Shown: piece by piece, positions 9,820 to 13,721 of the stretch
Layout: every line of letters begins with the position of its first letter
Position numbering within the stretch: position 1 is the first letter of the stretch
Source of the DNA: Planctomicrobium piriforme
GTDB taxonomy: Bacteria > Planctomycetota > Planctomycetia > Pirellulales > UBA1268
Length of the DNA stretch: 64,000 bases
Reading direction: 5' to 3'
Assembly (NCBI GenBank): GCA_945861585.1
Contig: CAMAVC010000003.1
Coordinates: 1 to 64,000, forward strand
Translations under genes and position numbers: made by a program
Notes under the pieces: model-generated
The model's input: the letters and a program-made list of their open reading frames with translations, nothing else
What the model was told of the DNA's origin: nothing
The model's database searches: none

Positions 9820-10779
9820 ATGCTTTTGAGTATTCAAAAAATGAGTTTTGGTGTCCCAAAATCGGTGTGGGTGAGTGGCCTGTGGGCCGGCGTTGTCGCC
9901 GTGACAGGGTGCGTCGATGCCGCGTCGGGCGTCGACCGCGCGGCCCCGCGGGTGCTCGCCACCACGACGATCGTCGCCGATCTCGTCCGGCATGTGGCCG
10001 GTGACCGCGTGACCGTCGACTGCCTCATGGGGCCGGGCATCGATCCCCATGGCTACAAGGCCACGCCTCGCGACGCCGACCGTCTGGCCCGCGCTGATCT
10101 CGTCGTCGCGTCGGGCCTCCATCTCGAAGGCAAGCTCGGCGAGTTGCTCGAGAAACTCGCGGCTCGCACCCGCGTGGTGGCCGTCGCCGAGGCGTTGCCC
10201 CGCGACCGGCTGCTCGAGATCGCCCCCGGCCTCTACGATCCGCACGTCTGGTTCGACCCGCAGCTGTGGAGCCTGTGTGCGCCGGTGGTGGCCGAGGCGC
10301 TCGCCGAAATCGATCCGGCGGGAGCCACGCTGTTTCGGGAACGGGCCCGCGATCATGCGTCACGGCTCGTACGGCTCGACGAGGAACTCCGCGGTCGCAT
10401 CGCCGCGATTCCCGCCGAGCGGCGCGTGCTCGTGACCGCCCACGACGCCTTCCGCTACTTCGGCCGCGCTTTTTCGATCGAGGTCGTGGGCGTGCAGGGC
10501 ACGAGCACCGAGAGCGAGGCGGGCCTCGCCGACATCAACCGGCTCGTCGATCTGATCGTCGCCCGCAGGCTTCCGGCCGTGTTCGTGGAGACGAGCGTCT
10601 CCGACCGCAACGTGCAGGCGCTCCAAGAAGGTGCCCAGGCCCGCGGCCAAAAGGTGCAGCTCGGCGGCCGCCTGTATTCCGATTCACTCGGGGGGCCGGG
10701 GAGCGACGGTGAGACGCTCGAGGCCGTGTTGCGGGCGAACGTCGCTGCGATCGTGGCCGGGCTCGCCGGAGCCCCATGA
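9820..10779 (+). CDS. Metal ABC transporter substrate-binding lipoprotein (TroA/ZnuA/YtgA family)
   Basis: Periplasmic metal-binding component of an importer. The 319-residue precursor has a lipobox ending in Cys31 (VAVTGC). The four metal ligands of the cluster A-I family are visible: His77 in GIDPHGY, His142 in YDPHVWFDP, His208 in TAHDAF and Asp288 in RLYSDSL, the His3Asp set of TroA, ZnuA and chlamydial YtgA. There is no His-rich loop of the sort found in many zinc binders, so Mn or Fe is as likely as Zn. The ATG at 9820 is preceded by AGGGAGA at good spacing; an in-frame ATG at 9841 is the alternative. Two palindromes lie across these first codons. The stop overlaps the ATPase start (ATGATGA). 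Confidence 0.94.
9824..9861. promoter_or_regulatory. Tandem palindromes, candidate metalloregulator operator
   Basis: Two perfect inverted repeats with four-base spacers: TTTTGA-GTAT-TCAAAA at 9824-9839 and TTTTGG-TGTC-CCAAAA at 9846-9861. Their centres are 22 bp apart, about two helical turns, so a dimeric regulator could bind both on one face. They sit in an AT-rich island at the head of the metal-transport operon. If translation begins at ATG 9820 they are inside the first codons; if it begins at 9841 the first lies just before the start. A weak TTGCTG-17 bp-TATGCT promoter-like pair at 9796-9824 would place the first palindrome near the transcription start. DtxR/MntR binding is inferred, helped by the regulator domain fused to the last gene of the operon. 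Confidence 0.45.
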
Positions 10780-11564
10780 TGACCGACTCCGGCGCCTCCG
10801 CCTGCCCGGCGGTCGAATTCCACGACGTGACGGTCGCCTACGGCCGCAGGCCCGTTCTTTGGAACATCGATCTCGTCATCAAGGCCCCCGGTCTGTTCGG
10901 GATTCTCGGACCGAACGGTGCCGGCAAAAGCACGCTCCTGAAGGCGGCCCTCGGCCTTGTGCCGCTGGTCGGCGGACGGGTGACGCTCTTCGGGCGGCCG
11001 CTCGCCGAGGTTCGCAGCCGAATCGGCTACGTGCCGCAGCGCGAAACAGTCGACTGGGATTTTCCCGTGAACGTGATGGACGTGGTGCTGATGGGCACCT
11101 ACGCGCGGCTGGGGTGGTGGCGCCGGCCGGGTGCCGCCGAACGCGATCGGGCCCGCGCGGCGCTCGAGCGCGTCGGCCTCGTCGATCTCGCCGGCCGGCA
11201 GATCGGCAGGCTGTCCGGTGGCCAGCAGCAGCGGGTGTTTCTCGCGCGGGCGCTGGCCCAAGACGCCGAGCTGTATTTCCTCGACGAACCACTGGCCGGG
11301 GTCGATGTCCGGTCGCAGGAGCGAATCTTTCGCGTGCTCGACGACTTGCGGCGGGAAGGCCGGCTCGTGGTCGTGGTGCATCACGACCTGCGCACCGCCG
11401 CCGACTGGTTCGACGGCGCGGCGCTCGTCGACATGCGGCTGGTGGCAGCCGGGCCCACCGCGGCGGTGCTCACGCCGGAGAACCTGCGCCGCACCTACGC
11501 CGGCCACATCGACGTGCTCGACGAACTCGGTCGCGCGGTCGAGCGCGGAGGCCGCACGGCATGA
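10776..11564 (+). CDS. Metal ABC transporter ATPase
   Basis: The 262-residue energising subunit of the importer. Walker A is GPNGAGKST, the signature [15 protein letters not shown], Walker [10 protein letters not shown], and the switch histidine lies in VVVVHHDL. The Q-loop region reads [16 protein letters not shown], the form usual in Mn/Zn/Fe importers of the TroB/ZnuC group. It overlaps the binding-protein stop and, at its end, the next start (ATGA), so the four genes form one tightly coupled operon. Confidence 0.95.
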
Positions 11565-12421
11565 ACTCCCTGGCCGCCATTCCCTACAACACGCTCGTGG
11601 TGGCGGTGGCAGTGGCCGTGGTGGGGTTTGCGTCGGGAGTGGTGGGCTGCTTCGGCGTGCTCCGCCGCCGGGCGCTCGCCGGCGACGCCGCCGCACACGC
11701 CACGCTCGCGGGCGTGGTGGCTGCGTTCGTGGTGACCGGACGGCGCGACCTGCCCACGCTCCTCGTGGGGGCATTCGTGGCCGCGATGGCGAGCCTCGGG
11801 TGCCTCGTCGTCATTCGGCGGTTCACCCGCACCCGCGACGACGCCGCCACCGCGCTCGTGCTCAGCGTGTCGTTCGGCATCGGCATCGTGCTGCTCTCGG
11901 GGCTCTCGGCCCGGGGCATTCCGGGAGCCGGTGGCCTCGAGCAGTTTCTGCTGGGCCACACCGCGGCGCTCACGGCCACCGACGCGATCACGCTGGCCGT
12001 CGTGTCGGCGGCGGTGGTGCTCGTGGTCTGGGCGGGCCTCAAGGAGGCCACGCTCGTCTCCTTCGATCCAGCCTTCGCCGCCGCCACGGGGTGGCCCGTG
12101 GCGGTCATCGACTATGCACTCGTGGCGCTCGTGGCGGCGATGGTCGTGGTGGGGCTGCCGGCGGCGGGTGCGGTGCTCGTGACCGCGCTCGTGGTGATTC
12201 CGCCGGTGGCCGCGCGGCAGTGGACCGACCGCGTGCCCACGATGCTCATCCTCGCCGGCGTGATCGGCCTCGTGGCGGCGGTGGGGGGCGTGGCCGCGAG
12301 CGCCGCGGTGCCCCGGCTCGCCACCGGGCCGACGATCGTGCTCGTGGCCTCCGGTCTGTTCGCCGTGTCGTTTTTCTGTGCGCCCGAGCGGGGCTGGTTC
12401 GCCCGCCGGCGGGGCGTGTGA
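11561..12421 (+). CDS. Metal ABC transporter permease, first subunit (ABC-3 family)
   Basis: A 286-residue permease with seven to eight hydrophobic segments and the ABC-3 words [17 protein letters not shown] near residue 35 and [18 protein letters not shown] near residue 205. It has no extra domain, unlike the following permease. The start ATG overlaps the ATPase stop by four bases. Together the two permeases would form the heterodimeric membrane pore, corresponding to the TroC/TroD or YtgC/YtgD pair. Confidence 0.93.
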
Positions 12422-12431
12422 GGCACGGCCC

Positions 12432-13721
12432 ATGACCATCGATACGGCAGCGAGCATGTGGGGCGAGTTCAGTGCCATGCACGCCTGGGCGATCGCCACG
12501 GCGGCCGTCGTGGCGGCCGGCTGCGCCCTCGTGGGCACGCTGCTTGTGGTGCGGCGGATGAGCCTGCTCGGCGACGCGATCAGCCACGCCGTCCTGCCCG
12601 GGATCGCCGTCGCCGTGTTGGCGGGCGGCCGGCCCGGCGGGCTGCTCGTGCTCGTGGGCGCGGTGGCTGCGGCGCTCGTGACCGTGCTGCTCGTGCAGGT
12701 GTTGCGGCGGGAGGGCGGCCTTGCCGACGACGCCGGCACAGGCGTGGTGTTCACGACGCTCTTCGCCCTCGGCGTGGTGATCATCACGGCCGCGGCATCG
12801 CGGATCGATCTCGATCCCGGCTGCATCCTGTATGGCATCCTCGAACTCGTGCCGTTCGACACGGTGCGCGTCGCCGGCTGGGAGATGCCCCGCGCGTTCC
12901 TCACCGGTGCGACCGTGCTCATGATCGTGGCGGCCGGCCTGGCCGCGACATGGAAGGAACAACTGTTTACGGCCTTCGACATCGACGCGGCCCGGGCCGT
13001 GGGCCTGCCGGTGGCCGCCGTCACGGGCGGGCTGCTCGCGGCCACCGCGCTCGTCACGGTCGCGAGCTTCGAGGCAGTGGGAGCGATTCTCGTCGTGGCC
13101 ATGCTCGTCGTGCCGGCCGCCACGGCCGAACTCCTCGTGCGGAGGCTGCACGTGATGGCGCTGGTGGCGATGCTCCTCGGCGTGGTGGCGGCCGTGTTCG
13201 GGTATCTGGCGGCGTGGCGGTTTGATACGAGCGCGGCCGGCATGATTGCCGTCGTGCTGGGGCTCGAATACGTGGTCGCGGCGATCGTCGCCCCGGAGGA
13301 TGGGGTGGTCGCCCGCGTGGCGGCCCGGCTCGCGCTGGGGTGGCGGGTGACGTGCGAAGATACGCTCGCACTCCTCTGGCGGGCCGACGAGGCCGGGGCG
13401 GGTGTGGCCCCTCAGCCCTTTCGCTCGCCGGGCGAGTGGGCGGCAGGCCTGTGGCTCGCGGCCAGCGGCCGGATCGCGCGCGAGGCCGGCCGCTGGGGGC
13501 TCACGGCCATCGGCCGCGCGGAGGCGGAGACGGTGGTGCGGTCGCACCGGCTGTGGGAGGCATGGCTCGGCCGTCACGCCGATCTGCCGCTCGATCATCT
13601 CCATCCGCCGGCCGAATGGATCGAGCATCACCTTGGCGCCGATCTCAGACGTCGGATCGAGGCCGACGTGGGCGCCGAGGAGAGCGACCCGCACGGGCGG
13701 TCGATCCCGCGCGAGCCGTAG
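12432..13721 (+). CDS. Metal ABC permease fused to a DtxR/MntR-like regulator domain (YtgCR-like)
   Basis: A 429-residue fusion. Residues 1-290 form an ABC-3 permease (RRMSLLGDAISHAVLPG; AVGAILVVAMLVVPAATAE). Residues 305-429 look like a whole metalloregulator: a first helix CEDTLALLWRADEAG (308-322), a poorly conserved winged-helix part ending GLTAIGRAEAE, and a metal-binding/dimerisation domain with His372 and Glu376 in SHRLWE, Glu395-W-I-Glu398-His399 in AEWIEHHLG, and a DPHGRSIP tail. The EWIEH word matches the Mn ligand motif of MntR (VEGIEHHL), though the residue equivalent to MntR Glu11 is Ala. Chlamydial YtgCR has this architecture and is cleaved to release an iron-dependent repressor of its own operon. 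Whether cleavage happens here is unknown. The end overlaps the converging endonuclease gene by 77 bases. Confidence 0.9.
   Translation: MTIDTAASMWGEFSAMHAWAIATAAVVAAGCALVGTLLVVRRMSLLGDAISHAVLPGIAVAVLAGGRPGGLLVLVGAVAAALVTVLLVQVLRREGGLADDAGTGVVFTTLFALGVVIITAAASRIDLDPGCILYGILELVPFDTVRVAGWEMPRAFLTGATVLMIVAAGLAATWKEQLFTAFDIDAARAVGLPVAAVTGGLLAATALVTVASFEAVGAILVVAMLVVPAATAELLVRRLHVMALVAMLLGVVAAVFGYLAAWRFDTSAAGMIAVVLGLEYVVAAIVAPEDGVVARVAARLALGWRVTCEDTLALLWRADEAGAGVAPQPFRSPGEWAAGLWLAASGRIAREAGRWGLTAIGRAEAETVVRSHRLWEAWLGRHADLPLDHLHPPAEWIEHHLGADLRRRIEADVGAEESDPHGRSIPREP

Follow-up and report, generated by a model that had tools for sequence, protein, structure and literature searches.

Most of what is known about fusions of a permease with a DtxR-type domain comes from Chlamydia, and there a membrane protein acting as a repressor has been the puzzle. 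In C. trachomatis, cleavage of YtgCR releases its tail, a repressor of the ytg operon (PMC5599777). A gene of similar build (12432–13721, forward strand) stands in a metal importer operon of the window, that is, the whole stretch of 64,000 nucleotides analyzed here, which comes from a planctomycete (genome G000, contig C3, 3.67 Mb) and whose closest named relatives are Planctomycetaceae/Pirellulales metagenome assemblies. The initial annotation likened this gene to YtgCR, and the question raised by the locus is whether its tail is likewise a repressor precursor or serves another purpose at the transporter.

The importer operon reads forward and encodes a ZnuA-type substrate-binding protein (SBP; 9820–10779, with an alternative start at 9865; PF01297, E 4.8e-73), an ATPase subunit of 262 amino acids (10776–11564; PF00005, E 3.8e-27), a first ABC-3 permease of 286 amino acids (11561–12421) and the fused gene, which contains the second. 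This composition fits an ABC-3/cluster A-I metal importer, and the earlier description of the operon as a planctomycete metal importer is upheld; the SBP, the ATPase and both permeases all have Pfam matches. As to specificity for Mn, Zn or Fe, best NCBIfam matches of the importer are mixed (AztC, MntC and EfaA), none reaching its cut-off, and those of the ATPase are metal-importer ATPases, all below their cut-offs. Of the two possible starts of the SBP gene, the ATG at 9820 overlaps the operator described below, and the GTG at 9865, just past the operator, gives a lipoprotein-like signal (lipobox-like VTGC). An SBP, an ATPase and an ABC-3 permease are also found in Mn/Zn/Fe importers of the PsaBC/TroBCD/MntBC type; to our knowledge, permeases of that type end after the last membrane helix, without a cytoplasmic metal-sensing tail.

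The fused gene is one frame of 429 amino acids, as first proposed. It contains an ABC-3 permease domain at residues 18–286 (12483–13289; PF00950, E 1.1e-44), matched in a Foldseek search by the PsaBC 7kyp chains (E 3.5e-13), and a PF02742 metal-binding/dimerization domain at residues 358–427 (13503–13712; E 1.9e-16). Permease and DtxR-type tail are joined in frame in dozens of related genomes, from the same family, the same order and many other Planctomycetota, and because the fusion recurs in one frame across so many genomes, a frame error or assembly artefact is excluded as its origin. Permease 1 has no tail in this genome: its stop lies 10 bases 5' of the fused gene and no remnant of a tail is present, whereas its orthologues carry tails.

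The tail was initially taken for a complete DtxR/MntR-like protein. When residues 295–429 are compared with DtxR profiles, the metal half matches PF02742, but the helix-turn-helix (HTH) half gives no match to PF01325. PF02742 is present in all 23 aligned relatives, and the ligands named at the outset (H372, E376, E395, E398 and H399) are invariant in every one of them, as are H391 and D310. Tail residues were matched to MntR/DtxR numbering with reference to the structures of those proteins, D310 being taken to occupy the position of MntR D8 and DtxR M10. The sole ligand position replaced is that of MntR Glu11, already noted as missing, where the fused tail has Ala313. D310 comes from alpha-1 (residues ~300–320; 13329–13391; E309-D310 invariant), which is retained, while the DNA-contacting segment is lost. 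The tail therefore resembles MntR, DtxR, IdeR and DR2539 in its PF02742 half, in both sets of metal-site ligands and in its DtxR-like fold, with an MntR-like Glu at the place of DtxR Cys102; it differs from regulators of this family in the absence of PF01325, in the Ala at the Glu11 position and in being tethered to a permease.

The HTH and wing segment (residues ~321–357; 13392–13502) is eroded. PF01325 is found neither in the fused protein of the window (P0001) nor in any of the 23 aligned fused relatives, whereas all three stand-alone DtxR controls that were scanned have both PF01325 and PF02742. The spacing from D310 to H372 has a median of 60 residues in fused tails versus 71 in stand-alone DtxR, so that about 11 residues are missing. 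Over 20 species, mean pairwise identity in the fused tail is 0.23 for the HTH core and 0.76 for the metal half, compared with 0.77 and 0.89 in the stand-alone DtxR of the same 20 species. The dN/dS of the fused gene was pooled over 14 close pairs, of which some share a member and which are hence non-independent. It comes to 0.045 in the metal half, 0.115 in the permease and 0.42 across the HTH and wing; with dS similar throughout (0.38–0.42), the metal half is under tighter constraint than any other part of the protein. Net charge gave no useful information on the HTH segment. With its HTH shortened, poorly conserved and under relaxed selection, the tail is not a complete regulator, and the earlier remark that the HTH is weakly conserved, although right in direction, understates the erosion of the core, which contrasts with strong selection on the other elements. 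DNA binding by the fused tail appears to have been given up or to be in the course of being given up.

Structure prediction, proposed earlier as a check, agrees in part with the expected regulator. The AlphaFold2 model of the tail (pLDDT about 66–90, in blocks of ten residues) comprises helix 1 (292–320), wing strands (348–351 and 354–357) and the dimerization helices, and its best matches in a structure search are DtxR-family structures, with DR2539 at the top. A DtxR-like fold is thus recovered, but a single helix (333–344) stands where an HTH normally has two, and no separate helix 2 is seen.

At the start of the importer operon lies a tandem operator of consensus TTTTGR-N4-YCAAAA, composed of TTTTGAGTATTCAAAA (9824–9839) and TTTTGGTGTCCCAAAA (9846–9861), 22 bp apart from centre to centre. 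The tandem array occurs exactly twice in the whole genome, at the importer operon and at C70:9723, against none for the reversed control pattern, a count that rules out a chance palindrome. The array is conserved before the orthologous operons, and a similar one is found in an Opitutales locus. The second array of this genome (L101:4724 = G000:C70:9723–9760) precedes a DUF1559/N-methylation (prepilin-like) gene, and importer and putative surface protein are likely to form a two-member metal regulon. Pairing of the operator with a DUF1559 gene recurs in G006, G007, G008, G011, G014, G022, G033, G034 and G035. In G006 and G034 the operator stands before the DUF1559 gene though no fused operon was found there (the G034 assembly is incomplete).

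The genome also encodes a separate, intact stand-alone DtxR (on G000:C4), and a match that includes this protein is found in nearly every genome examined. Of 22 fused-operon loci in other PVC lineages (Planctomycetota and Verrucomicrobiota), 8 have a strong stand-alone DtxR adjoining the operon (L032, L188, L278, L279, L282, L284, L286 and L290), which is far beyond chance because there is about one such gene per genome; three more have a weaker DtxR-like gene nearby. In L032, L282, L286 and L290 an operator site is present either in the gap from that DtxR to the SBP gene or where the SBP frame begins. The stand-alone DtxR is the presumed reader of the operator. The tail itself was rejected for this role in the window's family, since it has lost its HTH and since the operator is retained in genomes that yielded no fused operon. 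A reader of the Fur family is less likely: one or the other of two Fur-type genes was not found in several genomes with good operators, and neither was found in G034 (some of these assemblies are incomplete), whereas a match that includes the stand-alone DtxR is present in nearly every genome. A Fur-family gene was observed directly before the operator and DUF1559 gene in G006 (C13:367408–367686; L102), a genome in which no importer operon was found.

The wider history of the fusion was traced through its permeases. A tree of 119 permease domains places all first-position permeases on one side and all second-position ones on the other, and the fused permease P0001 belongs to the second-position group, in the place of ytgD, next to a permease 1 that is bare. 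In the tail tree, built on few columns and only weakly resolved at its deep forks, the tails split nearly as their permeases do. In Planctomycetota and Verrucomicrobiota alike, it is common for both permeases to have tails, which have degenerated in different ways. The suggestion that the fusion could be shared and old is favoured by this survey: the two phyla have it in common and the tails track their permeases, which points to an old, PVC-wide architecture.

Several variants of this architecture are seen. Some loci have full DtxR tails on both permeases. In L190–L194 and L196 the first permease has a full DtxR tail and the second ends in a winged helix of ~90 amino acids without a metal half, the opposite of the division in the window's family: there the metal half is all that the second tail keeps, and the first tail is either missing or, as in L018, L042 and others, a winged helix devoid of ligands. 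A structure search with a first-permease tail returned winged-helix (MarR-like) structures, all of them weakly, with no match reaching E 0.001; it is taken here as no more than support for a winged helix. Elsewhere the first tail is full and the second permease bare (L032, L232–L234 and others), or a single fused permease carries a tail made up of a DtxR-type and a FeoA/SH3-like part (~230 amino acids; L117, L118, L197 and L198). Beyond the window's family, PF01325 is matched by 1 of 43 first-position and 0 of 25 second-position fused tails, with a diverged winged helix often visible. First-position tails, for example in L064:2789–4237(-) and L236–L251, mostly have Asp in place of His391 and Glu395 (site variant HVDRDAD..EH), which possibly reflects a different metal preference. 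Sequences from metagenome assemblies titled Candidatus Kuenenia stuttgartiensis (L004, L007, L014, L022, L025, L029 and L031) group with Planctomycetaceae/Pirellulales, and these assemblies are probably mislabelled.

The reading that we favour, with a confidence somewhat above even, is that the tail works in the cytoplasm as a metal sensor, gates the importer to which it belongs and has lost DNA reading, while the separate DtxR sets transcription at the operator. The dimerizing tail, derived from DtxR/MntR, would sense imported Mn2+, Fe2+ or Zn2+ in the cytosol and would alter the activity of its own transporter, most likely by trans-inhibition when the cytosol is metal-replete; the intact DtxR would set operon transcription at the tandem TTTTGR-N4-YCAAAA site. 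In short, the tail probably throttles the importer and a separate, normal repressor controls the genes. We infer from sequence that the tail binds metal and dimerizes beside the paired ATPases, as well as the direction of its effect and the identity of the metal. Gating is the most economical reading because the metal/dimerization half has been kept, DNA binding dropped, the tail tethered to a membrane subunit and promoter control placed in a separate protein.

Related control of importers has been described. MetNI and ModBC are trans-inhibited by C-terminal dimerizing regulatory domains, and the proposed principle shared with MetNI (C2 domain) and Methanosarcina ModBC is that a cytoplasmic, substrate-binding, dimerizing domain stops the importer when substrate is plentiful (PMC10710835). 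However, their regulatory domain sits on the ATPase and has another fold, whereas the putative one in the window sits on the permease and is of DtxR origin. Moreover, tails of the wider family retain a winged helix, if a diverged one, and in the second position some amount to a winged helix with no metal half, which does not agree with a simple metal gate in every lineage. With permease 1 bare, a tail dimer would also need a permease-2 homodimer, or the tail would have to act asymmetrically.

Transport could also be coupled to gene control, for which MalK–MalT is a precedent. The HTH-less tail might pair, by way of its dimerization domain, with the stand-alone DtxR and hold or poison it at the membrane, so that the state of the transporter is passed on to gene control. 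Such a decoy or co-regulator would suit a tail whose conserved part is the dimerization half and which co-occurs with the stand-alone DtxR in the same genomes, but the dimerization halves of the two proteins form separate, diverged groups, and we consider this alternative doubtful.

The reading closest to Chlamydia is that the tail, cut off or tethered at the membrane, uses metal as co-repressor to shut down the operon that encodes it. YtgCR (CT069) and the window gene have in common an ABC-3 permease with a C-terminal DtxR-type domain in one frame, a four-gene metal importer operon and a PVC host, so the YtgCR-like build first recognized is real; the cleavage and repression known for YtgCR, the conserved palindromic operator at the operon and a tail whose overall fold is DtxR-like would all fit. 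The ytgD gene is the ORF immediately downstream of ytgCR (PMC7755916), and by gene order YtgCR would therefore be a first-position fusion, our permease tree having been built without chlamydial sequences. Unlike YtgCR, a DNA-binding repressor released by cleavage and encoded before ytgD, the window gene has no intact HTH in its tail, is a second-position paralogue in the ytgD place and comes from a genome with a stand-alone DtxR. Relaxed selection on the HTH in the window's family, operators retained where the fused operon was not found and the stand-alone DtxR genes adjoining such operons in other lineages argue in the same direction. Equivalence with YtgCR as a repressor precursor is thus not sustained, and a cleaved repressor is unlikely for the window gene.

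That the tail is a relic of an ancestral repressor, now serving only stability or metal buffering, would agree with the decay of the HTH and with a tail 1 that is repeatedly missing within this family; the low dN/dS of the metal half, the lowest of the protein, and its seven invariant ligands are unexpected for a relic, which makes this equally unlikely. A mixed dimer of the tails of permeases 1 and 2, with the winged helix on one and the metal site on the other in a single membrane-bound device, is suggested by the many PVC genomes with both permeases fused, by several relatives of the window's family with a ligand-less winged helix on tail 1 and a metal half without HTH on tail 2, and by the swapped roles in L190–L194 and L196, but it cannot be the mechanism here, where tail 1 is absent, and is given very little credence.

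The permease–DtxR architecture itself is already known, since permease–repressor fusions have been reported in 11 phyla, according to the citation of Thompson et al. 2012 within PMC5599777. HTH-less tails, fusions of both permeases and their pairing with a stand-alone DtxR have no report in the literature searched, which omits most subscription papers; what looks new is the sensor lacking an HTH and the paired occurrence of fusions. We know of no earlier case of a DtxR-type domain that feedback-gates a Mn/Zn/Fe ABC importer, and that of the window, if true, would be the first. The broader reading, evenly balanced in our estimation, is that a DtxR-family repressor has been turned into the built-in allosteric sensor of an ABC importer, within an old PVC system that had tails on both permeases; the DNA-binding and metal-sensing halves of these tails would later have been divided or lost in different ways while an ordinary DtxR kept the promoter. 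Fusions of both permeases in two phyla, with tails that track their permeases, point to an old and complicated history that is absent from the literature searched. As a natural experiment in which the metal site was kept and DNA binding discarded, the window's family suggests that part of the fusion's job lies at the transporter, and the question is raised for YtgCR whether iron import may be gated by its uncleaved form.
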